Assembly (NCBI RefSeq): GCF_014960965.1
Contig: NZ_CP063169.1
Location: 3,009,581-3,073,580, forward strand
Length of the DNA stretch: 64,000 nt
Origin: Ruania alkalisoli
GTDB taxonomy: Bacteria; Actinomycetota; Actinomycetes; Actinomycetales; Beutenbergiaceae
Reading direction: 5' to 3'
Below the pieces are notes generated by a model. The model was not told the origin of the DNA. It saw nothing but the letters and a program-made list of their open reading frames with translations, and did no database searches. Both the position numbers and the translations under genes were made by a program. Below are positions 30,092-42,359 of the stretch, piece after piece (the stretch's first letter is position 1; every line of letters begins with the position of its first letter).

Positions 30092-30907
30092 TCACCCCGC
30101 GTCCAGAGCGCTGTCGATCACGCTCACGTGCCAGCGCCCGAGGTTGGAGGTGAACAGGTCCGCTCCCCGGAAAGCGACATTCGTCGGATGGCACAGCACG
30201 TGAGCGGTCTCGTCCGCCACCAGCGTGGTGACTGCCCCGCTCGCGGGATCCACGCGCAGCACCTGGCTGGGCTCGTAACACCCGACGTACAGCATTTGGT
30301 CGGGGCCGATCGTGACGCCGTCGGGAAGCACCCCGGGCATGACTGCCACGGTCTCGGCAGGGCCGGGGCCGCCGTCGGGATGGATCGGGATCCGCACCAG
30401 ACGGGAGGCGAACGTCTCGACCACGTAGACGCAGCTCTCATCATCCGGGACGGCCAGGCCGTTGGCGATGTCGAGCGGACGGTCGTACCAGAGCCCACCG
30501 GTCCCGTCCCGATCGAACCGGTACACCCCTGGCCCTGGCTCACCCTGCACGTTCGAGTCGGTCACGTACACCGACCCTGACGGCGCCACGCGCACCATGT
30601 TGGGAGTGACGAAGGGCCGGGCTCCCCCACCCGTGAGCTGTTCCAGCCCACCGGCGAATCGGTACAGCGCCCGGTGGGCCAGATCACACAGGTACACATC
30701 ACCTGTGGGGTCGATATCGACGCCCAGCACGAATCCGCCCGTACTGGCGACCTGCTCGCGCTGACCCCCATCCGGGGAGATCCGGTAGAGCTGCCCCCGC
30801 TCGCCGCCGCACCAGATGCTGCCGTCCGGGTGCACCGCCACGCCCTCCGGGTGGTCCAGCCGCGGCTCCGAGAGCGTGCCGTCGTGAAAGACCCTCGCGC
30901 TCGCCAT
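30092..30907 (-). CDS. SMP-30/gluconolactonase-family protein
   Basis: 271-residue six-bladed propeller likely to hydrolyse sugar lactones. Family features are the metal-site start HPEGVAVHPDGSIWCGGERG (about 19-38), YVTDSNVQGEPGPGVYRFD, and IANGLAVPDDESCVYVVETFASR. It is the last gene of the minus-strand sugar cluster. With the SDR dehydrogenase and sugar-acid dehydratase upstream it fits oxidation of an aldose through its lactone. The gap after it (to sdhC) shows only a short T run on the minus strand. Confidence 0.85.
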   Translation of the reverse strand: MASARVFHDGTLSEPRLDHPEGVAVHPDGSIWCGGERGQLYRISPDGGQREQVASTGGFVLGVDIDPTGDVYLCDLAHRALYRFAGGLEQLTGGGARPFVTPNMVRVAPSGSVYVTDSNVQGEPGPGVYRFDRDGTGGLWYDRPLDIANGLAVPDDESCVYVVETFASRLVRIPIHPDGGPGPAETVAVMPGVLPDGVTIGPDQMLYVGCYEPSQVLRVDPASGAVTTLVADETAHVLCHPTNVAFRGADLFTSNLGRWHVSVIDSALDAG

Positions 30908-30910
30908 GTC

Positions 30911-31960
30911 TCAGACCTGATCGACGGTGCCGCCGGGACCGACCAGCCGCACCCGGCCGTGGGGAACGAACGTGGTGGCCTCGATCCGTGTGGACCGGGC
31001 CTCTCCCCCGGCCAGCTGAACCAGGTTCGCACCCTGGGATCTCGCGTGGGCGATGCCGTGGCCGGGGATCGTCGACGCCGGCTCGATCGCCGTGACGTAT
31101 ACCTCGCCCCACCATGGCGCACCGCCGCTGGCCCGCAGCTCCTGCCAGTACCAGGCGTGCGGGAACAGCTCCGCATCCCACCTCAGCCCCACCCCGAGCT
31201 CGATCTCGGGGTTCACCATCGCGTACCAGCCGGCGCCAGCGAAGTCGCCCAGATAGGCGAGGGTGGCCCGCGGCGCACTGGGGATGCGGGAGAAGTCGGC
31301 CGGTTCCCGGCCCGCCGGTGGCACCGGATGCGGCCAGTCGCCTCTCGCCGAGGGCTGCAGATCGGCACCGGCGTCGGAGGCGTCGGCAGTGATTGTGGTG
31401 GCGCTGGTGTAGATCCGGGTGGACGGCCCGATCAACGGGGCGCCGAATGCTGGGTGGTGGGACCACATGATCTCGATCGGGTCGGGGCTCGTGTTCGTCA
31501 CCGCCTCGTCGATACTGAGCACGGGCCCACTGACGGCGACCCTGCGCTCGATCTGCAAGGGAGCCCTGGTCAATCGGGTGCGCAGGCGGGCGTACGCTTC
31601 GCCGTCAGCAGCGCCGGAATCCACCAACTGCCAGGGGATCCGGGAGGCCTCCCCGTGCCAGCCCCAGGTCAGTCCGCCGGGAGCCTCGCTCGCGTCGCCA
31701 CCGTTGGGGCACAGCAACTGCCAGCCACCGCAGTAGCGCTCCAGCCACTCGGCCTCGTCCTCGGCGTTCCAGCGTCCGGAACCGTAGGGGGGCATTGCCC
31801 ACGGGGTCTTCCAGAGCACGTCCACGCCGGTGCGGCGGTCGATCAGGGCGTGCACGTCGCAGCCCTGCTGGGGCAGCAGCGTCACCTCGAGATCGTCACT
31901 CCTGAGGCGCAGCCCGGTCCATCCGTTGCCGAGGTCGGTCTCGGTCACCTGCGCGGTCAT
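30911..31960 (-). CDS. DUF4432/aldose-1-epimerase-like protein
   Basis: 349 residues from ATG 31960, overlapping the preceding glycosidase stop by one base (TGATG). The sequence (LRSDDLEVTLLPQQGCDVHALIDRRTGVDVLW) resembles the galactose-mutarotase-like superfamily, DUF4432 branch. Later family-like parts are WSHHPAFGAPLIGP and MVNPEIELGVGLRWD. Probable sugar mutarotase or epimerase for the sugar released by this cluster; specificity unknown. Confidence 0.82.
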   Translation of the reverse strand: MTAQVTETDLGNGWTGLRLRSDDLEVTLLPQQGCDVHALIDRRTGVDVLWKTPWAMPPYGSGRWNAEDEAEWLERYCGGWQLLCPNGGDASEAPGGLTWGWHGEASRIPWQLVDSGAADGEAYARLRTRLTRAPLQIERRVAVSGPVLSIDEAVTNTSPDPIEIMWSHHPAFGAPLIGPSTRIYTSATTITADASDAGADLQPSARGDWPHPVPPAGREPADFSRIPSAPRATLAYLGDFAGAGWYAMVNPEIELGVGLRWDAELFPHAWYWQELRASGGAPWWGEVYVTAIEPASTIPGHGIAHARSQGANLVQLAGGEARSTRIEATTFVPHGRVRLVGPGGTVDQV

Positions 31961-34053
31961 CAGGATTCCTTCCGGTCGTTGGTGTGCGCAACGGCCCGGC
32001 CGCCGACGATGTCGTAGCTCGTGCCGGCCACGTGCAGGCCGCGTAGTGCCGCGTGCGGATCGAGCTGGTCCACCCAGCCGTCGGTGGACACGCTCCCGTC
32101 CATGCCGACGTGCACGCCGAAGATCCCGCCGATCACCAGTTCTACGAACGACCCGGCCGAGGAGCATGACCAGTCGATCAGGTACGGGAACTGAGGCGGC
32201 GTCTTACGTGCTCCACCGTTGACCGGCGGCGCTGCCTCCTCCACGAAGTGCGCCTGCCCGGGCGGGCCCTGATTGGCGGTGCGAGCCAGGCCCGGCAGCC
32301 AGTCCGCCACCACCTCCGGGTGCCCGAGGGCGATCGCTGCCCGGGCTGAGTCCGGCGGCCAGGCGGGGTAGGCACCGTTCCACTGGTGGTCGGCTCGCAG
32401 CGAGTAGCCCGCGTCCGGGTCCGAGGGTGCGAGCGCCCGCATCCACGACGGTGTGCGCAGCTCCGTGTCGAAGAAGCGCACCATCTCCTCGCGCACCTGC
32501 TTGGGCAGATCTGCTGCGATGGTCGTGCCGACGGTGGCGAAGTCGTAACAGTGCTTGGTGGGCACCAGGGTGCCGTCCGGCTGCCGGGCGTGGAAGTGGC
32601 CCGCCCCGGGGATGTAGAGGTCGCGCACGAGTGCCACCAGGTCCTCGGCATCGGCCCGCAGCCGCGCGGCTTCGGCCGTCTCGCCGTCCAGATCGGCGAT
32701 CTCGGCCGCCGTCCGCAGGCACCACACATTGGCGGCATTCAGGCTGGCTACCTCGTGCACGTAGGAGCTGACGCACTCAAGCAGGTTGTCGATCTCGCCG
32801 TAGTCGGCCAGGCCGCTGGCCGAGCGGAGGGTGTGCCAGTGGCGCGCCCAGGAACGCACATGGTCACGCAGGGGGCGAGTGACGCCGTCGGGGGTGGTGA
32901 GCTCTTCATCCAAGAAAGCCCGGTCGCCGGTGAAGGCGAGGTAGTCCCGCACCAGTCGGGTCATGGCGTAGTGGTTGACCGAGTACCAGTAGCCGACCGG
33001 GCCGCCGGTGAGCCACTCGGTGCCGAAGTGCTGCTCGATGTCCAAGCCCACCCAGTGCGCGATCTGACGGCGCATCACGGCCGGGTCGAGCTGGGCGTGA
33101 ACGTGGGAGGAGAGGGAGTAGTCCCAGATGAACGTCGTGGTCTGCCAGTACCGGGGCATCAGGGTGTCGTAGGTGCGCCCGAGCACCGAGGCCGGGTTGT
33201 CCCGGCGGAACCAGAGCACCCCGACGGCGCCCCACCAGTAGAGCCGGCGCAGGTCCGCGTCGCTGGTGTCCAGGACCGGAAGTGCGCCGGAGAACTCAGG
33301 ATTCGTCGGATCGAAGAGCGCCGCGAGCGAGGAGTTCCAGGACGTCTCGCTCTGCGCCACCGCCTGCGAGGCGCCGGCCACCATCGCATCGGCCGCGGCC
33401 CGGGCGTGTTCCTCCTGTGCCGAGATCGCATGCACGTAGTCCCAGGTAAGGCTCTGGCCGGCACCGACGTTCACCGTCGCCTCCACCACGCGCGCTCCCC
33501 CGGGGATCACCTCGGCACCCTGGGGAACCACCAGCTCCTGCACGGCCCAGGCACTGCCGTCGGTGCCGGTGACCCGGGTTCCCGTACGCTCCACCCGGTT
33601 GGGTGCGTGCGGTGGCTCGGCCCGGCTCCACGGCGCGGCCTGCGTGACGGCAGTGGCCAGCCACACGCCGAGGCGCAACTGCCGCTCCTGTGCGGCCGTG
33701 TTGGTGACCTCGAGCCGCACGTGCACTCCTGGTTGCCCGGCGGGGCACACGGTCGCGGTGCGCAGCTCCCAGCCCTCGATCGTGGTGCGCCGATCCACCC
33801 GGTCCGGGCGCCACCGGGTGTGGACCGGTTGCCCGTAGGAGCGGGCGAGCCTCCCCCCGAGGTAGAGCTGCCCGGTGATGGTGTCTCCCTGAGCCACGGG
33901 TGGCACGTTGAGGCTGCGGACGGCGAGGACGTCGTGGTCGACCTGGGCGGTGGCCCAGTGGTTGGTCAGCCCGGGCGGATTCACCATGTCGTCGAAGGCG
34001 TCGAGCACCTCTTCGGATGCGAGGTCGGCGCAGGTGGGGATGAGCGGGTTCAT
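31960..34053 (-). CDS. Putative glycoside hydrolase, (alpha/alpha)6-barrel type
   Basis: 697 residues from ATG 34053. An N-terminal beta-sandwich region (about 1-250) precedes an all-helical domain. Its hallmarks resemble MGH1/GH63- or rhamnosidase-like barrels: TTFIWDYSLSSHVHAQLDP, YWYSVNHYAMTRLVRDYLAF, DYGEIDNLLECVSSYVHEVA and LIDWSCSSAGSFVELVIGGIF. No signal peptide is visible, so it should act in the cytoplasm on imported oligosaccharides. The exact family and linkage cannot be fixed by eye. Confidence 0.72.
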   Translation of the reverse strand: MNPLIPTCADLASEEVLDAFDDMVNPPGLTNHWATAQVDHDVLAVRSLNVPPVAQGDTITGQLYLGGRLARSYGQPVHTRWRPDRVDRRTTIEGWELRTATVCPAGQPGVHVRLEVTNTAAQERQLRLGVWLATAVTQAAPWSRAEPPHAPNRVERTGTRVTGTDGSAWAVQELVVPQGAEVIPGGARVVEATVNVGAGQSLTWDYVHAISAQEEHARAAADAMVAGASQAVAQSETSWNSSLAALFDPTNPEFSGALPVLDTSDADLRRLYWWGAVGVLWFRRDNPASVLGRTYDTLMPRYWQTTTFIWDYSLSSHVHAQLDPAVMRRQIAHWVGLDIEQHFGTEWLTGGPVGYWYSVNHYAMTRLVRDYLAFTGDRAFLDEELTTPDGVTRPLRDHVRSWARHWHTLRSASGLADYGEIDNLLECVSSYVHEVASLNAANVWCLRTAAEIADLDGETAEAARLRADAEDLVALVRDLYIPGAGHFHARQPDGTLVPTKHCYDFATVGTTIAADLPKQVREEMVRFFDTELRTPSWMRALAPSDPDAGYSLRADHQWNGAYPAWPPDSARAAIALGHPEVVADWLPGLARTANQGPPGQAHFVEEAAPPVNGGARKTPPQFPYLIDWSCSSAGSFVELVIGGIFGVHVGMDGSVSTDGWVDQLDPHAALRGLHVAGTSYDIVGGRAVAHTNDRKES

Positions 34054-34064
34054 GGGTCTCGCAA

Positions 34065-35030
34065 TCACGTGAGCAGGTCGGTGAGCCAGGCGGCCAGGTG
34101 CGCGTCGTCGTCGGCACCTCCCGCCTCGTGGCCGTTCCACGGCCACACCCGCAACTCGGGGGCGGTGGGCATGACGTTGATCGCCCCGAAGATCCCCGAC
34201 GGCGGGCAGGTGGCATCCATCAGCCCCACCGAGACCCAGGCCGGGCAGGCGATCCGGGGCGCCAGGTGGGAGACGTCGATGTGTTCGAGTACGGCCAGCA
34301 CCTGCTCAGCCGTGCCGCGGTGGACCGCCAGGTACCCGGAGAGCTCACCGTAGGGCGGCAGATCGGTGAGCGAGGCGGCACGGGCGATTCCGCACAGGAA
34401 CGGCGCCCGGGCCGCAGTAGCAGCCACCAGCGGGTGCAGCGCGGCCGCGGCCAGGGCGAGCGCACCGCCTTGACTGTGCCCGACCGTCGCGATCCGGGCC
34501 GGGTCTGCTCCGGGCAGGTGCCGGACGGCGTCCACGGCACGGACCGCATCGGTGGCCAGCCGCCGGAAGTACAGGTGGTCGGGGTGGTCCACCCCGCGGG
34601 TGAGCATCCCAGGGGCAGCCGGGCCGGACCCGTGCGGGTCGGCTGTCGCACCGGCGTTCCAGGTACTGCCCTGCCCACGCGTGTCCATGACCAGCTGCGC
34701 GAACCCGTGGCTGACCCAGTGCAGCCGCTCATGCACGAGTCCGCGGCCGCCGCCGTAGCCGAGCATCTCGATCACGACCGGGCGCTGCCCCGGCACACCT
34801 CGCGGAAGCAGCCACCATGCCTTCACCGGCTCGCCCGCGAAGCCGGGGAAGGTGACGTCGTAAGCGTCAACGGTCATCAGACCCGAGGACGCAGGCAGGC
34901 ACTCCACCTCTCCGCCGGCCGAGCGCGCCTCGTCAAGCGTGCGGTCCCAGAACTCCTCCAGGCCCGTTGGTGCCGGGCGCTGGTTCCGGTAGGTACGCAG
35001 CTGCTCGAGCGGCAGATCGAACAGTGTCAT
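34065..35030 (-). CDS. Acetylxylan esterase-like hydrolase (CE7 family)
   Basis: 321 residues matching CE7 deacetylases throughout: [21 protein letters not shown] at the start, DTRGQGSTW, the nucleophile elbow GHSQGGALALAAAAL (Ser of GHSQG), VGLMDATCPPSGIFGA supplying the Asp, and WNGHEAGG supplying the His. No export signal. CE7 enzymes remove O-acetyl groups from short oligosaccharides in the cytoplasm, which suits import of acetylated glycans by this cluster. The start overlaps the upstream dehydratase stop. Confidence 0.92.
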   Translation of the reverse strand: MTLFDLPLEQLRTYRNQRPAPTGLEEFWDRTLDEARSAGGEVECLPASSGLMTVDAYDVTFPGFAGEPVKAWWLLPRGVPGQRPVVIEMLGYGGGRGLVHERLHWVSHGFAQLVMDTRGQGSTWNAGATADPHGSGPAAPGMLTRGVDHPDHLYFRRLATDAVRAVDAVRHLPGADPARIATVGHSQGGALALAAAALHPLVAATAARAPFLCGIARAASLTDLPPYGELSGYLAVHRGTAEQVLAVLEHIDVSHLAPRIACPAWVSVGLMDATCPPSGIFGAINVMPTAPELRVWPWNGHEAGGADDDAHLAAWLTDLLT

Positions 35031-36292
35031 CAGCGCCTCGCGTACTCGGCCGCGAGCGCCTCCGGCAGGCGGTCCTCGCGGGGGTCGGCGAAGGAGGTGT
35101 TCGGAAGCAGCGGGTACCAGCCCGGGCGGCCGGGGTCGCGGTCATAGGGGTAGTCGCCGAGCTCGCGGTACAGCTCGGCGTACTCGGCCACCTTGTCCCG
35201 GTCGAGTTTCACCCCGAGCCCGGGTTCGGTGGGGACGGTCATCTTCCCGTTCACGTACGGGCGTTTGCCTCCCTGCACGACGTCGTCAAGCAGGTGGTGA
35301 TAGTGGGCATCGGCCGCGTAGGTCAGGTTCGGCACGGCCGCACCCAGGTGCAGCATGGTGGCGAGCTGAATGCCCAGCTCGCCGGAGGAGTGGACGGCCA
35401 CGCCGAGGGAGAACGCCTCGCAGATCGCGGCGGCCTTCAGGCAGGGCCGGATCCCGCCCCAGAAGGTGGTGTCGAGCAGGACGACGTCGACGGCCGGGTT
35501 GAGGATGGTGGTGGCCAGCTGCTCGGTGTTGACGACCACGGTGTTGGTGGCGAGCAGGATGTGGGTGTTCTCGCGTACCTGCCGCATCCCCGGCAGCGAG
35601 TAGACCGGATCCTCGAGGTAGTCGTTGGGCAGATCCTCGATCGCCTTCGCGAACCGGATCGACTCCCCCACGCTCAGGGCCCCGTTCGGGTCGTAGCGCA
35701 GCTTGTCCGCCGGTCCCATCGCCTCGGCGAGCGCCTGGTAACCCGCCAGTTCGTGGTCGGTGTCGAAGACGCCACCCTTGAGCTTGTGCACCCGGAATCC
35801 GTGATCCTCCCGCAGGCGCTGCGCCTCGGCGACGAGCTGCTCGTTCGTTCGTACCTCACCGGTGCCGTCCGGGCCCGGATAGCGGTAGAAGAGGTAGGAG
35901 GCGAACTCCACCTCCTCGCGCACCTTCCCGCCGAGCAAGGCGTGCACGGGCAGGCCCGCCTGCTGGCCCACGAGATCGAGGCAGGCGAACTCGATCGCGG
36001 CGAGCAGTTGGGTGCGGTTGTTGTACAGGCTCGCTGTCGGGTTGGCGATCATGAACCGCAAGGCCTCGGTATCGGCGGGATCGTGCCCCACCAGGTAGTC
36101 GGTCAAGCCGGTGACCGCAGCCTCAGCACTCTGTCCGCCGCCGCCGAGCTCACCGAGACCGATCAGGCCGTTGTCGGCCTCCACCTCCACGATGGTGCGC
36201 ACGAAGCGGCCCCAGTGAGCACCGTTGGAGTGCCGCAACGGTGCCTCCAACGGGACCGTCACGGTTGTCGCCCGGATGGCGGCGATCTTCAT
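35030..36292 (-). CDS. Enolase-superfamily sugar-acid dehydratase (glucarate dehydratase-like)
   Basis: 420 residues. The catalytic Lys-x-Lys appears as [10 protein letters not shown]. Metal-binding acids lie in RYDPNGAL and DYLEDPVY, followed by LATNTVVV (Asn in the third position, as in the GlucD group) and the histidine segment [12 protein letters not shown]. It should dehydrate an acid sugar to a 2-keto-3-deoxy acid; D-glucarate is only the nearest family resemblance. It lies between the CE7 esterase and the SDR gene with overlapping stops and starts. Confidence 0.88.
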
Positions 36293-37116
36293 GAGTCCTC
36301 CTTGCCGAGCGCGACGGCGTTGCCCGCCGTGAGCCCACCGTCCACCTTCACGTCCGCACCGGTCACGAACGACGACCTGTCGCTGAGCAGGTAGGCGACG
36401 ACGTCACCGACCTCCTCGGGGCGTGCGACCCGGCCGAGGGGGTGCGCACGTCCCCAGTCGGCCACGATCGCGTCGACGGCTGAAGGATCTGCCGGACCCT
36501 CGCCCGCGACCTGCAATCCTGCCGCCCACCGCAGCATCGGTGTATCGACCGACCCTGGGCAGACGGCGTTCACACGGATCCCGTCGGCGGCATGGTCGAT
36601 GGCCATCGCCCGGGTCAGGGAGAGCAGTGCACCCTTGGTGGCGGAATAGGCGGCGACCTGCTGCTGGGCGACGTAGGCCTGGACCGAGGACACCAGCACG
36701 ACGGCTCCGCCGCCACCATCGCGGATCAGTGGCACGGCCAGATGCGCCGCCAGAAAGGCGCCACGGACGTTGACAGCCATCACCCGGTCGAAGGTGGCCA
36801 TCGCGTCCTCGTCCGCGACCGTGCCATACGTCTGGATACCGGCCGCACAGACCAGGCCCTGGACGGGCTCGCCACGGTGAGCTGCGTCGTCGGCGATCGT
36901 GACGAATGCCTGGCGCATCGAAGTCGCCTCGGTGACGTCCGCCACCACGGGCACGACCTGCTCAGGTGTACTGGCGGAGAGCGCCGTCACACCGCCGGAG
37001 TCACGGTCGAGGGCGTAGACGCGGCGGCCATCGTCGGTGAGCCGGCCGACGACGCCTGCGCCGATCCCGGCACCTGCGCCGGTCACGATGACCGATCCGG
37101 TGTGGGTGTCTGTCAC
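36289..37116 (-). CDS. SDR-family oxidoreductase
   Basis: 275-residue classical short-chain dehydrogenase: the NAD(P)-binding [12 protein letters not shown] (about 12-23), VNVRGAF, the catalytic Ser in VLVSSVQAY, and YSATKG (Tyr-x3-Lys). The C-terminal [16 protein letters not shown] is typical. In this operon it probably oxidises an aldose to its lactone, the step before the SMP-30 lactonase. The stop overlaps the dehydratase start (ATGA). Confidence 0.88.
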
Positions 37117-37125
37117 GAGAACCTC

Positions 37126-37935
37126 CTAGAACTGGCCGAGGGAGAGGCCGCGGGTGAACACACGCTGGGTCGCGAGGAAGAGCACCACGGTGGGCAATGA
37201 GACCAGCAGACCACCGGCCAGCACGGTCGACATCGCCGACCCGCCGTAGGTGGACTGCAGGGCCGAGAGCGCGGTGATGATGGGGCGCACCTCGGCCGAT
37301 TGGGTGAGCGTGAGGCCGAGGAGCAGGTCGTTCCAGATGAACGTGGCCTGCAGGATGAACACGGCGATCAGCGCCGGTAGGGCCATCGGCAGGTAGATGG
37401 CGACGAAGATCCGCAGTGTGGAGGCACCGTCCACCACCGCGGCCTCGAAGACCTGGTGGGCGATCCCGGTGAAGAAGTTGCGCATCACGAACGCCGAGAA
37501 CGGAACCGCGATCACCGTGTACACGAGGATCATCCCGACGCGGGTGTTGAACAGGCCCGTCTCGGCGTAGCCGACGAAGAGCGGCATCAGGATCATCTGC
37601 AGCGGGAAGATCGAGGATGCGAAGATCACCACGAACCAGGCGAATCCGTGCCGCAGCCGCAAAGCGACGATCGAGAATCCGGCCGCAGCGCCGACGATCA
37701 CCGCGATCAGCGGGGAGACGATCGCGTAGGTGGCGGTGGAGAGCAGACCACCGGAGAGCTTGCCGCGCTCGAAAGCCTCCGCGAAATTGGCCCACAGCCC
37801 GCCGAGTGTTCCCGGTTCCCACAGCCCGTAGTCACCGAACTCGGCCGGCAGCTTGGAAGCATTGGCGAGCAGCAGGTAGACCGGTACGAGCCAGAGGATG
37901 CCGAGAATCCCGAGAATGAGTCGTCGCAATGCCAT
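37126..37935 (-). CDS. Carbohydrate ABC transporter permease (MalG-like)
   Basis: 269 residues with six predicted helices and the EAA loop EAAVVDGASTLRIFVAIYLPMALP that contacts the ATPase. Second permease of the CUT1 importer, starting one base after the stop of the other permease. No ATPase gene occurs in the cluster, so a shared MsiK-type ATPase elsewhere is expected. Confidence 0.92.
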   Translation of the reverse strand: MALRRLILGILGILWLVPVYLLLANASKLPAEFGDYGLWEPGTLGGLWANFAEAFERGKLSGGLLSTATYAIVSPLIAVIVGAAAGFSIVALRLRHGFAWFVVIFASSIFPLQMILMPLFVGYAETGLFNTRVGMILVYTVIAVPFSAFVMRNFFTGIAHQVFEAAVVDGASTLRIFVAIYLPMALPALIAVFILQATFIWNDLLLGLTLTQSAEVRPIITALSALQSTYGGSAMSTVLAGGLLVSLPTVVLFLATQRVFTRGLSLGQF

Positions 37936-37936
37936 C

Positions 37937-38854
37937 TCATGCCCCCCGGGAGTCGGCGAGCTGACGGCGCAGGTACAGGATGGAGGCCAGCACCGTCACC
38001 ACGGTCAGGAACAGGGCCACGGCGGCGCCGAGCCCGTAGGAGTTGTTCACGAACGTCTCCTTGAACATGGTCAGCGCGAGGGTCTCCGAGACCCGTCCCG
38101 GACCGCCCTTGGTCATGCCCCAGATGACGTCGAACGTCTTGAGGCTCCCGACGATCGCCAACCCCACCACGACCGTGGTCAGCGGGGCAAGCATCGGCCA
38201 GGTCATGGTGCGAAAGAGTGTGAATCCGCTGGCGCCGTCCACCCGGGCTGCCTCGATCGGCTCCTTCGGGATGGACTGCAGGCCGATTCCGAAGAGCAAC
38301 GCGTTGACGCCGGCGCCCTGCCAGGTGGAGGCGCCGATCATCACGAAGGTGTTGAGCGGTCCGTCCAACAGCCATCGCAGCTCCGAACCCGGCAGGTGCA
38401 GGAACTCCAGAGCCTGGCTGAGCGCGCCGTTCGTCTGGAGCACGAAGGACCAGATCACTCCGACGGCGACCCCGGAGACGGCGTATGGGATCAGGAACGG
38501 CAGCCGGAACCAGGTGGCTTTGGGCATGCCGTGGCTGAGCGTGGCGATGAGCAGACCCAGGCCGACGGGGAGGGCGATCGTGCCGACCACCCAGAACAGC
38601 GTGTTGCGGATCGAGGTGAGGAACTCCGGATCGGCGAACATCTCCCGGTAGTTCTCGAGCCCGACCCAGGTTGGATCACCGAGACCGTTGTACTCGGTGA
38701 AGCTGATGTAGGTGGTCCAGATGAACGGCAGGTACAGGACGACGGCCACGAGCAGCACCGACGGCGCTACGAAGCCGATACTCGAGAGCCGGTAGGCGTT
38801 CTTCGGCCGGCTGGCAGCCTGCAGCTCGGCCTGCCGGGGGGTGGGCATGGTCAC
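37937..38854 (-). CDS. Carbohydrate ABC transporter permease (MalF-like)
   Basis: 305 residues from GTG 38854, chosen because AAGGAGGAG lies ten bases upstream; the ATG two codons later is less well spaced. Six helices and the EAA loop PIEAARVDGASGFTLFRTMTWPMLAP are present. Pairs with the MalG-like permease and the binding protein encoded immediately upstream. Confidence 0.92.
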   Translation of the reverse strand: MTMPTPRQAELQAASRPKNAYRLSSIGFVAPSVLLVAVVLYLPFIWTTYISFTEYNGLGDPTWVGLENYREMFADPEFLTSIRNTLFWVVGTIALPVGLGLLIATLSHGMPKATWFRLPFLIPYAVSGVAVGVIWSFVLQTNGALSQALEFLHLPGSELRWLLDGPLNTFVMIGASTWQGAGVNALLFGIGLQSIPKEPIEAARVDGASGFTLFRTMTWPMLAPLTTVVVGLAIVGSLKTFDVIWGMTKGGPGRVSETLALTMFKETFVNNSYGLGAAVALFLTVVTVLASILYLRRQLADSRGA

Positions 38855-38948
38855 GGCGGGGTCTCCTCCTTGAGAGCGGCCGGGGCAGGGAGTGTCCGGA
38901 TGCCGGGCCGGATGGTCCGGCCCGGCACCGCAGCGGTCACCTTGGCCG

Positions 38949-40247
38949 TCAGCCCTGGTCGGCCCAGTACGCGTCGGCCTCGGCCTGGATGGCTTCCAGG
39001 TGCCCCATCGGGTCGTCATTGTTGGTGACGAACGCGCCGAACTCCTCGGCCGCCACCGTGTAGATCGGCGTCGGGGTTGCTTCCAGGTAGCGGCGCAGCT
39101 GCTGATACCCGTCCCCGGTGACCTGCGCGGTGATCTCCGCGAGCGCCTCGTCGGTCACAGTCGCGTTCGGGTTGAACGAGACGTCACCGCGAGAGTCGCT
39201 CCAGGCGGACTGTGCGTCCGTTCCCATCCACCAGGCGCTGTAGTCGAGGGCAGCCTGTTCGTTCTCGCTGTCGGTGCCCACGCACAGCGGTCCAGTCTCG
39301 ACGACGACGGGGGTGTCAGCCAGGCCGGGGTCGACGCTGGGCAGGACGAACATGCCGTAGTCCTCTCCGGAGACCATCCCGAGGTCGGTGAGCTGACCGG
39401 TGAAGAATGTGCCGAAGTAGGCCATCGCGGTCTCACCGGTCTGCAGCAGTGTCTGCGGGTCGGTGGTCACGCCCGGGTCGATGAAGTAGCCATCGGACTG
39501 CATCTGATGCCAGGTCTCCATGGCCTCGACCACTGTCGGGTCGGTGTAGGAGACCGACCCGTCGGACAGGCCGTCGTACGCCTCGGGGTCCATCCCGGCA
39601 AGGATCGCCTGGAACCAGACGAACTCGAAGATGATGTTCATCTGGTGCAGGGGAACCACCCCGGCGTCGACGAGCGTGTTAGCGACCGCGGTGAACTCCT
39701 CCCACGTGGTCGGCACGTCCAGTCCGTGCTCGTCGAAGACGTCCTGGTTGTAGTAGATGACCCAGTAGACGACGTTGAGGGGCACGCAGTACTGCTTGCC
39801 GTCGTAGGTGTAGTTCGCGGCCAGATCCTCGCTCACATAGCCGTCGGCGATCGCCTGGTCCCAGATGTCGGTGGTCTCAGCCACCAGGCCCTGCTCGACC
39901 AGTTCGCCGAGTCGATCCCCGGTGTGCCAGGTGAACAGATCGGGTCGCTCATCGGTGCGGAAGGACTGTTTGATGAACGCGTCGTAGGCGGTCGGGTCAG
40001 AGTAGCCGGTGAACGACAGCTGCGGGGCGAGGCCATCCGAGGCAGTGTTCATGTCCTCGAAGGAGGGTTCCCAGGCAGCCTTGTCGGTGAAGAAGTCGAG
40101 GGTGACCTCGGCGCTGCTGCCATCGTCACCGTTTCCGTCTCCGTTTCCGCCATCTCCCGGCTCGGGGACATCGCCGCCGGAGCATGCGGACAGGGCGAGG
40201 GCTGCCCCGGTGAGCAGGGCGAGGCCGGTCGTGGTTCTGCTTCTCAT
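38949..40247 (-). CDS. Extracellular sugar-binding lipoprotein of ABC transporter
   Basis: 432-residue lipoprotein with signal peptide LALLTGAALALSAC, so Cys22 is lipidated. A Gly/Asp-rich linker precedes the bilobal solute-binding fold (family 1, sugars), with W-rich segments such as WWMGTDAQSAW in the C-lobe. First transporter gene of the operon. A GTGT-CTG-ACAC inverted repeat lies between its GAGG ribosome-binding site and ATG. Confidence 0.93.
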   Translation of the reverse strand: MRSRTTTGLALLTGAALALSACSGGDVPEPGDGGNGDGNGDDGSSAEVTLDFFTDKAAWEPSFEDMNTASDGLAPQLSFTGYSDPTAYDAFIKQSFRTDERPDLFTWHTGDRLGELVEQGLVAETTDIWDQAIADGYVSEDLAANYTYDGKQYCVPLNVVYWVIYYNQDVFDEHGLDVPTTWEEFTAVANTLVDAGVVPLHQMNIIFEFVWFQAILAGMDPEAYDGLSDGSVSYTDPTVVEAMETWHQMQSDGYFIDPGVTTDPQTLLQTGETAMAYFGTFFTGQLTDLGMVSGEDYGMFVLPSVDPGLADTPVVVETGPLCVGTDSENEQAALDYSAWWMGTDAQSAWSDSRGDVSFNPNATVTDEALAEITAQVTGDGYQQLRRYLEATPTPIYTVAAEEFGAFVTNNDDPMGHLEAIQAEADAYWADQG

Positions 40248-41046: not shown

Positions 41047-41063
41047 AAGTCATCTAATCACTT
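41047..41063. promoter_or_regulatory. Candidate GntR operator 1
   Basis: AAGTCATCTAATCACTT, an interrupted palindrome of the form AAGTsATnnnATsACTT, sits two bases from the regulator start codon. It overlaps where a leaderless promoter -10 would fall, so binding would block the regulator's own expression. The matching site is at 42326-42342. Confidence 0.65.
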
Positions 41064-41133
41064 GAGGACGAAGTTGGCAAGGTGCCACCGATCGTCACTC
41101 AGCCCGACTGTGAGCGACGATCGGTGACGCGCA

Positions 41134-42285
41134 CTACTCGAGGTCGAGGGACAGCTCCACGAACCGCGGCCGGTAGATCGTGACGTCCTCGTACAGCTCG
41201 GAGGAATCGAAGCTGTTGACGTTGTACGTCAGCACCGTGGTGAAGGAATCGTCGTCGGCTGTCCGCAGCTCGGGGTGCTCGTGAGCGTTGTAGGCGAAGA
41301 TGTTCGGGTTCCCGTAGCTGCCGCCTGCACCGACCTCCGGCATCTCGTAGACCGTGCCGATCGGCTCGAACGGGCCGGTCGGTGAGCATCCGACGTAGCC
41401 GACGATGTTCCGGCTGAAGATCTCGTGCGTGTCCTGGGTGAGGAGAAGGTACCCGTCCGCGAGGGCGGCCACGCTGAACTCGTTGGCCACGCCGTCCATC
41501 AGCCGGGTAGTGCGGGACTCATCCCAGCTCCACCGGTTACCGGCCCAGAACCGCCAGGGCTGGGTCAGGTCGGCCCCCCGCACCCGCGCCACGTGCAGGT
41601 ACTTCTCCGCACCCAGGTCCTCGACGCCGTAGATGTAGGTGTACCGGCCCGCCGGCTCGATCCAGCTCGCCCACTGCACCCCGGACTCCGACGGCAGGTC
41701 GGTCAGATCCAGCAGTTCGAAGGTGTCCGGATCGAACCGGGCCAAGTGGTTGCTCTCCCAGCCGAAATCGAAGGCGCCGCCCCCGCCGTACCAGAACTGC
41801 AGAGCCGTGAGCTGGATCGTGCCGTCGTCGGCCTGCAGCCCGTCGCCGACCCAGTACCACCCGCCGTCCTCGGGCGGTTCGATCAGTGAGGCCGGGTTCT
41901 CGTCCGTGCCCCCGGTGACCGTGGTGAGACTCCCGCCATCGGACACGACGAAGCTGTTGTTCAGGAAGGGCGTCTCCAGCGGCCGCGTCCCACCCTCGTG
42001 GACCGGACCGAGGAAGGTGTCAGAGAAGACCCATACGGTGCGGCCGTCCGCGAGTGGGATGGAGTACGTGGAGTCCCCGCCGGTCCAGCCCACACCGGAA
42101 TCGCCGTAGTCGGCGAAGTCAGCCTCCAGGTCAGCATGCACCGTCGCACTGGTGGCGATGTCAGCATCCACCAGATCGCAGCGGGCGGAGGGTCGATCAT
42201 TGTCCGCGGACGCGGGTGCCGCGATGGCGGCAACCAGGGCGGTCGCGCCGACCGCCGCAGCACCGAGGGCTCGGGCATATCGCAT
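41134..42285 (-). CDS. Secreted DUF5005/DUF4185-like beta-propeller protein
   Basis: 383 residues with an export signal (MRYARALGAAAVGATALVAAIAAPASA) and no lipobox. The mature part begins a five-bladed-propeller-like pattern: GVGWTGGDSTYSIPLADGRTVWVFSDTFLG, in two motifs, is characteristic of DUF5005/DUF4185 proteins. Later are WYWVGDGLQADDGTIQLTAL and YGNPNIFAYNAH. A role in extracellular carbohydrate binding or cleavage is plausible but unproven. AAAGGAG precedes the ATG at good spacing, and the promoter carries the second palindrome. Confidence 0.78.
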   Translation of the reverse strand: MRYARALGAAAVGATALVAAIAAPASADNDRPSARCDLVDADIATSATVHADLEADFADYGDSGVGWTGGDSTYSIPLADGRTVWVFSDTFLGPVHEGGTRPLETPFLNNSFVVSDGGSLTTVTGGTDENPASLIEPPEDGGWYWVGDGLQADDGTIQLTALQFWYGGGGAFDFGWESNHLARFDPDTFELLDLTDLPSESGVQWASWIEPAGRYTYIYGVEDLGAEKYLHVARVRGADLTQPWRFWAGNRWSWDESRTTRLMDGVANEFSVAALADGYLLLTQDTHEIFSRNIVGYVGCSPTGPFEPIGTVYEMPEVGAGGSYGNPNIFAYNAHEHPELRTADDDSFTTVLTYNVNSFDSSELYEDVTIYRPRFVELSLDLE

Positions 42286-42325
42286 GAAGATGGCTCCTTT
42301 GCCAGATGGAACACGAGAAATGACT

Positions 42326-42359
42326 AAGTCATCACATCACTTGATCACTCGCTTGACAA
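42326..42359 (-). promoter_or_regulatory. Promoter with candidate GntR operator 2
   Basis: Read on the minus strand, TTGTCA (42359-42354) and TGTGAT (42336-42331) are 17 bases apart and form a plausible promoter for the DUF5005-like gene. AAGTCATCACATCACTT (42326-42342) covers the -10 and matches operator 1 at 15 of 17 positions, with the same AAGTsATnnnATsACTT symmetry. Confidence 0.65.

Follow-up and report, generated by a model that had tools for sequence, protein, structure and literature searches.

Conserved palindromes predicted as operators of a GntR/FCD regulator gene and of an adjacent gene for a GH183-like protein in Ruania alkalisoli

Two nearly identical 17-bp palindromes in Ruania alkalisoli, AAGTGATTAGATGACTT and AAGTGATGTGATGACTT, lie on the promoters of a GntR/FCD regulator gene and of the neighboring gene for a probably secreted, GH183-related glycosidase. 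From sequence comparison, we hold with high confidence that both are operators of this regulator, which would repress the two promoters until the binding of an acid releases the dimer. The palindromes are located on both promoters, and such a site accompanies relatives of the regulator in many actinobacteria; it is therefore very probably the regulator's own switch, a real and conserved operator of ordinary purpose. The proposal of the initial annotation, namely that the GntR product regulates both its own gene and the one for the secreted protein, finds strong support in comparative genomics; binding by this regulator, repression rather than activation, and a sugar acid as the inducer are what we infer from it. 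The features of the window, which is the whole 64,000-nucleotide stretch of DNA that was analyzed, are listed in Table 1.

Table 1. Positions of the predicted operators, promoter elements, hairpin, and genes of the cluster in the window.
Feature	Position	Strand	Remarks
Operator 1 (predicted), AAGTGATTAGATGACTT	41047..41063	-	One base ahead of the GntR start codon; conserved in relatives
Operator 2 (predicted), AAGTGATGTGATGACTT	42326..42342	-	Covers the -10 of the secreted-protein gene
-10-like hexamer TTAGAT, GntR promoter	41052..41057	-	Operator positions 7-12
-35-like hexamer TTGCCA, GntR promoter	41075..41080	-	17-bp spacer
-10-like hexamer TGTGAT, secreted-protein promoter	42331..42336	-	Operator positions 7-12
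-35-like hexamer TTGTCA, secreted-protein promoter	42354..42359	-	17-bp spacer
Strong hairpin	41084..41128	-	-33.3 kcal/mol, z -4.36; separates the stop codon of the secreted-protein gene from the GntR promoter
Probably secreted five-bladed-propeller glycosidase, GH183-related, DUF4185/DUF5005-like	41134..42285	-	Both below the Pfam cut-off; model, fold match
GntR/FCD regulator, 231 aa	40350..41045	-	Pfam GntR 47.3 bits, FCD 67.6 bits, both above the cut-off
ABC transporter solute-binding protein	38949..40247	-	Pfam; 102 bp past GntR
ABC permease	37937..39019	-	Pfam
ABC permease	37126..37935	-	Pfam
SDR oxidoreductase, aldose dehydrogenase-like	36289..37116	-	Best NCBIfam match below its cut-off
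Enolase-superfamily sugar-acid dehydratase-like protein	35030..36292	-	NCBIfam matches below their cut-offs
AXE1-type esterase	34065..35030	-	Pfam
(alpha/alpha)6-barrel glycosidase/phosphorylase-like protein	31960..34053	-	Predicted fold; no Pfam match
DUF4432 protein	30911..32167	-	Pfam; true start may be further downstream
SMP-30/gluconolactonase-like protein	30092..30907	-	Domain scan

On the minus strand, AAGTGATTAGATGACTT reads from 41063 to 41047 and AAGTGATGTGATGACTT from 42342 to 42326, and the agreement at 15 of 17 bases claimed for them is correct, the two differences being at central bases. A pattern search of the 4,448,695-base genome for AAGTsATnnnATsACTT, the scan that the initial annotation had called for, returned two exact matches, both of them these sites, and the pattern read backwards as a control returned none in the whole genome. 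When up to three mismatches were allowed, the window held four matches vs. 1.56 expected, a number reached in 7 of 100 shuffles, and just these two were exact. With up to two mismatches, the whole genome contains 14 sites: the two exact ones, one with a single mismatch, and 11 with two. The random genome-wide scatter that would have spoken against a regulon was not observed, and the 12 inexact sites seem to be in coding sequence because the stop-to-stop open frames around them are all at least 354 bases long and have a GC3 that exceeds GC2, the difference being small (0.14-0.28) for six of the 12. A degenerate pattern, RTSATNNNATSAY, was dropped as a definition of the regulon, since its 22 matches in the same genome make it too loose.

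At both sites of the window, the -10-like hexamer occupies the center of the operator, 17 bp past a TTGNCA -35 element. One palindrome had been placed over the -10 of the DUF5005-like gene, and this placement holds (TTGTCA-17-TGTGAT); the GntR gene equally has such an overlap (TTGCCA-17-TTAGAT), which goes beyond what was noticed at first. The -10 hexamers are weak, matching TATAAT at three and four of six positions, and the stricter sigma-70 rule of the promoter scan found none at these sites. The ATG of the GntR gene lies 6 nt past its -10 hexamer and the regulator mRNA is therefore probably leaderless; a leader is present in front of the secreted-protein gene and contains AAAGGAG. Across 58 sites (the two of the window and those of 56 loci), similarity to TTGACA reaches its maximum precisely where the spacer is 17 bp (3.03 of 6, vs. 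a mean of 1.39 and s.d. of 0.36 over all offsets), the next peaks being at offset -6 (2.66), which lies within an accessory half-site, and at an 18-bp spacer (2.43). This half-site, 8 bp upstream, scores 4.26 of 7 over the set (mean 1.87, s.d. 0.35) and is similar to the additional boxes that the available part of PMC4494728 describes at sites of the GntR family.

The same anatomy allows a reading of the palindrome as a mere conserved element of leaderless promoters, made up of a -10 hexamer and a start codon, since many loci have TTAGAT or TCTGAT at the center and, in 40 of the 58 sites, there is an ATG or GTG 6-8 nt past the hexamer (reading frames not checked singly). However, the outer arms AAGTG/CACTT, which are needless for a -10, are nearly as conserved as the center: at positions 1-5 the commonest base is found in 54-60 of 61 sites, position 15 being weaker with C in 42 of 61. 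Furthermore, the site is kept where the first ATG or GTG is 20-44 nt away (L045, L058, L065, L077, and L086-L090), and the genome contains no exact match to the pattern apart from the two sites. We regard a promoter element without operator function as highly improbable. A protein bound over the -10 normally excludes polymerase, and the position of the site on the -10 itself argues against the regulator being an activator here, which we consider very improbable even though some FCD proteins, such as CitO, are described as activators in the portion of the literature available. The preferred reading is that of an operator for repression.

Between the stop codon of the secreted-protein gene and the GntR promoter stands a stable hairpin; a T run or T-tract terminator was looked for at 41084-41128 and not found, so that the structure is terminator-like only. 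Because of this hairpin, though it has no T run, the secreted-protein gene and the regulator probably form two transcription units. The hairpin, with same-strand genes on both sides, was also seen by eye in Ruania rhizosphaerae.

Conservation of the site with the regulator was scored as matches out of the 14 informative bases of the palindrome. The closest named relative is R. rhizosphaerae, the regulator of which is 99% identical. An orthologue of the regulator was found in 15 of 24 genomes of the family, and a site of at least 12 is located at the regulator start in all 15 (L015-L029); the 24 genomes contain seven exact sites, three at the regulator start and four where the adjacent glycosidase gene begins. 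Among 394 Actinomycetia genomes, 30 contain the regulator at E 1e-30 and 16 contain exact sites (18 in total). Six of these 16 carry the regulator and contain seven of the sites, every one of which adjoins either the regulator gene or the glycosidase gene next to it; the other 11 exact sites are in 10 genomes without the regulator at the same threshold.

In the named genomes, a site of at least 11 is present up to 1.5 kb upstream of the regulator in 56 of 57 scored relatives, vs. 1 of 167 downstream control windows and, once the bases of the upstream regions had been shuffled, 2 of 57; at a score of at least 12, the corresponding counts are 53 of 57, 0 of 167, and 0 of 57. The sole scored relative without a site of at least 11 is L092, a distant proteobacterial protein. 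The 57 scored loci (L036-L092) were taken from 80, of which 22 (L094-L115), more distant and mostly proteobacterial, were left unscored, and L093 has no site, its best score being 9. A class-wide sample, comprising one locus per genome for 30 genomes (32 regulator matches; G000 and G009 also belong to the family set), gave 28 loci that reach 11 and two that reach 10, vs. a downstream control maximum of 10; the site of L159 in this sample is weak and 265 bp away. Because the samples overlap partly and roughly half of the named-genome set comes from Kribbella and Nonomuraea, the locus counts are not independent events. A chance origin of the sites was rejected on the grounds of their uniqueness in the genome, their placement in the family, and the scores relative to control windows in the named genomes and in the class-wide sample.

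It is very unlikely that the palindrome belongs to a different, unlinked regulator which happens to control the cluster. The exact sites of the 10 genomes in which no orthologue was detected would suit such a factor, as would the departure of the sequence from the FadR-subfamily consensus, but the site follows the regulator gene through 17 named genera, even into loci without recognized transporter, pathway, or glycosidase genes of the window. This alternative and the two considered above are not strictly exclusive of one another, and the neighboring GntR/FCD protein is the regulator to which we assign the site. Variant operators (e.g., AAGTGACTAGTTCACTT) are kept in L077, L079, L082, and L086-L090 (Catenulispora, Actinacidiphila, Kutzneria, and Planotetraspora), and tblastn at 1e-8 found none of the transporter, pathway, or glycosidase genes of the window near these loci. 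A further sequence, AAGTCATCAGATGACTT, is present once each in L126, L127, and L128 at 1501-1517 (genomes G096, G080, and G324, of one genus), where the regulator was undetected; it is perhaps the site of another factor.

The order of the genes for the regulator, the solute-binding protein, the two permeases, the SDR oxidoreductase, and the enolase-type dehydratase is kept in relatives, as found by tblastn, and the AXE1 esterase and the (alpha/alpha)6 protein are also present in many relative loci. Of 58 loci, 31 have the glycosidase gene next to the regulator, upstream of it in 28 and downstream in 3, and in two more it lies approximately 10 kb away. One operator precedes the arrangement glycosidase-regulator-transporter in 19 of the 31 loci and regulator-glycosidase-transporter in three, and each gene has a separate operator, like in the window, in one (R. 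rhizosphaerae). Both operators also occur in two other genomes of the Ruania clade (G015 and G018), and the 17-mer of operator 2 lies directly before the orthologous glycosidase gene in these and in G019; among relatives, an operator belonging to the glycosidase alone was observed only in the Ruania clade (the window genome, G015, G018, and G019). In Kribbella, Salinispora, Actinocatenispora, Nakamurella, and Isoptericola, the operator is common to the glycosidase and the regulator. No site above 9 was found near the glycosidase start in eight of the 31 loci (L037-L044; three Occultella, R. albidiflava, Ca. R. gallistercoris, Actinotalea, and two Pseudactinotalea), and the single operator found there fronts the regulator. 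Co-regulation of the glycosidase gene thus appears to be common and achieved in different ways but, because of these eight loci, not universal. The initial idea that the site links a secreted protein to the sugar-acid cluster is upheld by comparative genomics in its substance; the link is not a distant one, because the two genes are direct neighbors on one strand, the regulator following the secreted-protein gene, and the separate operator was observed only in the Ruania clade. In the one Nonomuraea locus inspected, a GH38 gene (L070, 12946-16638) is located between the permease and the dehydratase genes, a hint that the regulator may serve the use of another glycan there.

The assignment of the regulator to the GntR/FCD class is secure by its Pfam scores (cut-offs of 27 and 24.3 bits, respectively). 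The statement that FCD-type proteins usually bind such palindromes is accurate as to the interruption, the operator having a 3-nt center as in FadR-subfamily operators, and departs from the facts in the core, where AT...AT replaces the GT...AC of the subfamily. The FadR-subfamily consensus is given as TKGT/ACMA, usually 3 nt apart, in the available part of PMC4494728, which also describes a recognition-helix contact between Arg and G as possibly conserved in the GntR family, with exceptions that include NanR and BioR. The half-sites here are TGAT-N3-ATSA, and GT/AC does not flank the center; all 61 sites have A at operator position 6 and T at position 12, although these sites were chosen as the best pattern matches, so that their base counts lean towards the pattern. 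At the position equivalent to Arg45 of FadR, none of 55 relatives (L037-L091) has Arg (Val in 30, Thr in 17, Ala in 6, Met in 1, and Pro in 1), and the next residue is Pro in 54. The other contacts listed are kept, with Lys or Arg at FadR position 35 in 54 of 55 and Arg49, His65, and Gly66 in all 55. The FadR row of this alignment is what we take to be the FadR sequence, and its numbered residues agree with the contact table used, which is from the accessible portion of PMC4494728. Arg is the commonest residue at this position, although not universal, in the FCD regulators of the same genome: nine others have Arg in six cases and His, Lys, and Pro in one each, the recognition helix having been taken from 10 of 18 such regulators (L172 was a false match and seven were left out). 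Arg45 would be the reader of the G that is replaced here.

The cluster downstream of the regulator suggests what the inducer may be. The DUF4432 protein is presumably aldose-epimerase-like, and because dehydrogenase, lactonase-like, and dehydratase-like proteins are encoded downstream, a sugar acid is the likeliest inducer. The (alpha/alpha)6 protein is 697 aa long, and 27 of 58 relative loci contain a full-frame homologue. Neither Pfam nor the PDB gave a match to its sequence; its model (mean pLDDT 78.0, with several stretches below 50) gives a broad GH94/GH65/GH63-type fold match, and the product is possibly an unclassified glycosidase or phosphorylase. No member of GH172 or GH116 was found among the cluster proteins scanned. 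In the FCD domain, the His triad H152, H196, and H218 is invariant in 55 of 55 relatives and Asn148 is present in 46; the three His probably hold a metal. Such a triad is described for FCD regulators in the available parts of PMC7674646 and PMC6608401, and Asn at position 148 is shared with Ps5454 (PMC7674646, in part).

The product of the gene ahead of the regulator is probably secreted, judging by eye from its N-terminus. It scores 35.5 bits against the DUF4185 cut-off of 39.5; of three orthologues scanned, L048 (39.7) and L053 (42.1) pass and L051 (35.0) fails. Its model has a mean pLDDT of 88.1, the underlying alignment including the row of L064, which is out of frame at the N-terminus, and the fold matches in the PDB are led by 4hbs, a putative hydrolase, followed in second and third place by EndoMA1 (8hhv and 8ic1). 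A profile search reaches EndoMA1 by sequence as well (E 3.4e-10), and the invariant E269 aligns with chain position E243. In EndoMA1, a GH183 endo-alpha-D-arabinanase, E243, D33, and D51 are essential according to the available text of PMC10509167. D71 and D89 of the window protein are 18 residues apart, the same spacing as D33 and D51, and they may be the catalytic Asp pair, as judged from this spacing and the alignment with 4hbs, not from that with EndoMA1. The DUF4185 proteins assayed so far are endo-D-arabinanases (PMC10115798, in part). Identity to EndoMA1 is 18-19% and the window protein is under the DUF4185 cut-off; D-arabinan as its substrate is a lead only. The D-arabinan locus of Microbacterium arabinogalactanolyticum likewise comprises a secreted DUF4185 enzyme, an ABC importer, and intracellular glycosidases (PMC10509167, available part); it is proposed to feed D-ribulose-5-phosphate, whereas the genes of the window suggest an oxidative sugar-acid route. 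The word "regulator" is absent from the main text on that locus (PMC10509167).

The likeliest model is that the regulator dimer sits on the -10 of its own, probably leaderless promoter, which would also drive the downstream transporter and sugar-acid operon, and on the -10 of the promoter of the GH183-like glycosidase, keeping RNA polymerase off both. The transporter would import breakdown products, an acid derived from them would bind the FCD pocket with its three conserved His and probable metal, and the dimer would let go, so that both units are expressed together. E. coli DgoR, a FadR/FCD sugar-acid repressor, is similar in its GntR HTH and FCD domains, its metal-site His, its palindrome with a 3-bp center, the proximity of its gene to transport and sugar-acid genes, and the overlap of its site with the promoter (PMC7674646, in part). 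By contrast with FadR/FCD sugar-acid repressors, the half-sites here are TGAT/ATSA rather than TKGT/ACMA, and the place of FadR Arg45 is taken by Val, Thr, Ala, Met, or Pro. Two traits are unusual: the AT core together with the lost recognition-helix Arg, and the merging of the operator with the -10 beside a probably leaderless start. Subscription papers and RegPrecise aside, no published account was found of the 17-bp site or of the pairing of its GntR with DUF4185, the motif strings being present in papers with unrelated titles; a search for a leaderless autoregulated GntR with its operator at the start codon also found none, and the accessible literature joining Ruania and GntR gave CsqR only.

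The chances seem evenly balanced that a widespread actinobacterial FCD clade has dropped the Arg-G contact on which operator reading in the GntR family is anchored and reads an AT core, with one 17-bp palindrome serving as the operator and the -10 that abuts a leaderless start, and that this clade controls a glycan-to-sugar-acid pathway not yet described, the first step of which falls to a secreted enzyme resembling GH183. These observations provide a concrete predicted operator for a regulator that is present in 30 of the 394 sampled Actinomycetia genomes, in which an altered reading of DNA would go together with the loss of a contact believed to be conserved across the GntR family. Furthermore, they would place a secreted GH183-like enzyme in a single co-regulated catabolic pathway and so reduce the range within which its substrate and the inducer have to be sought.
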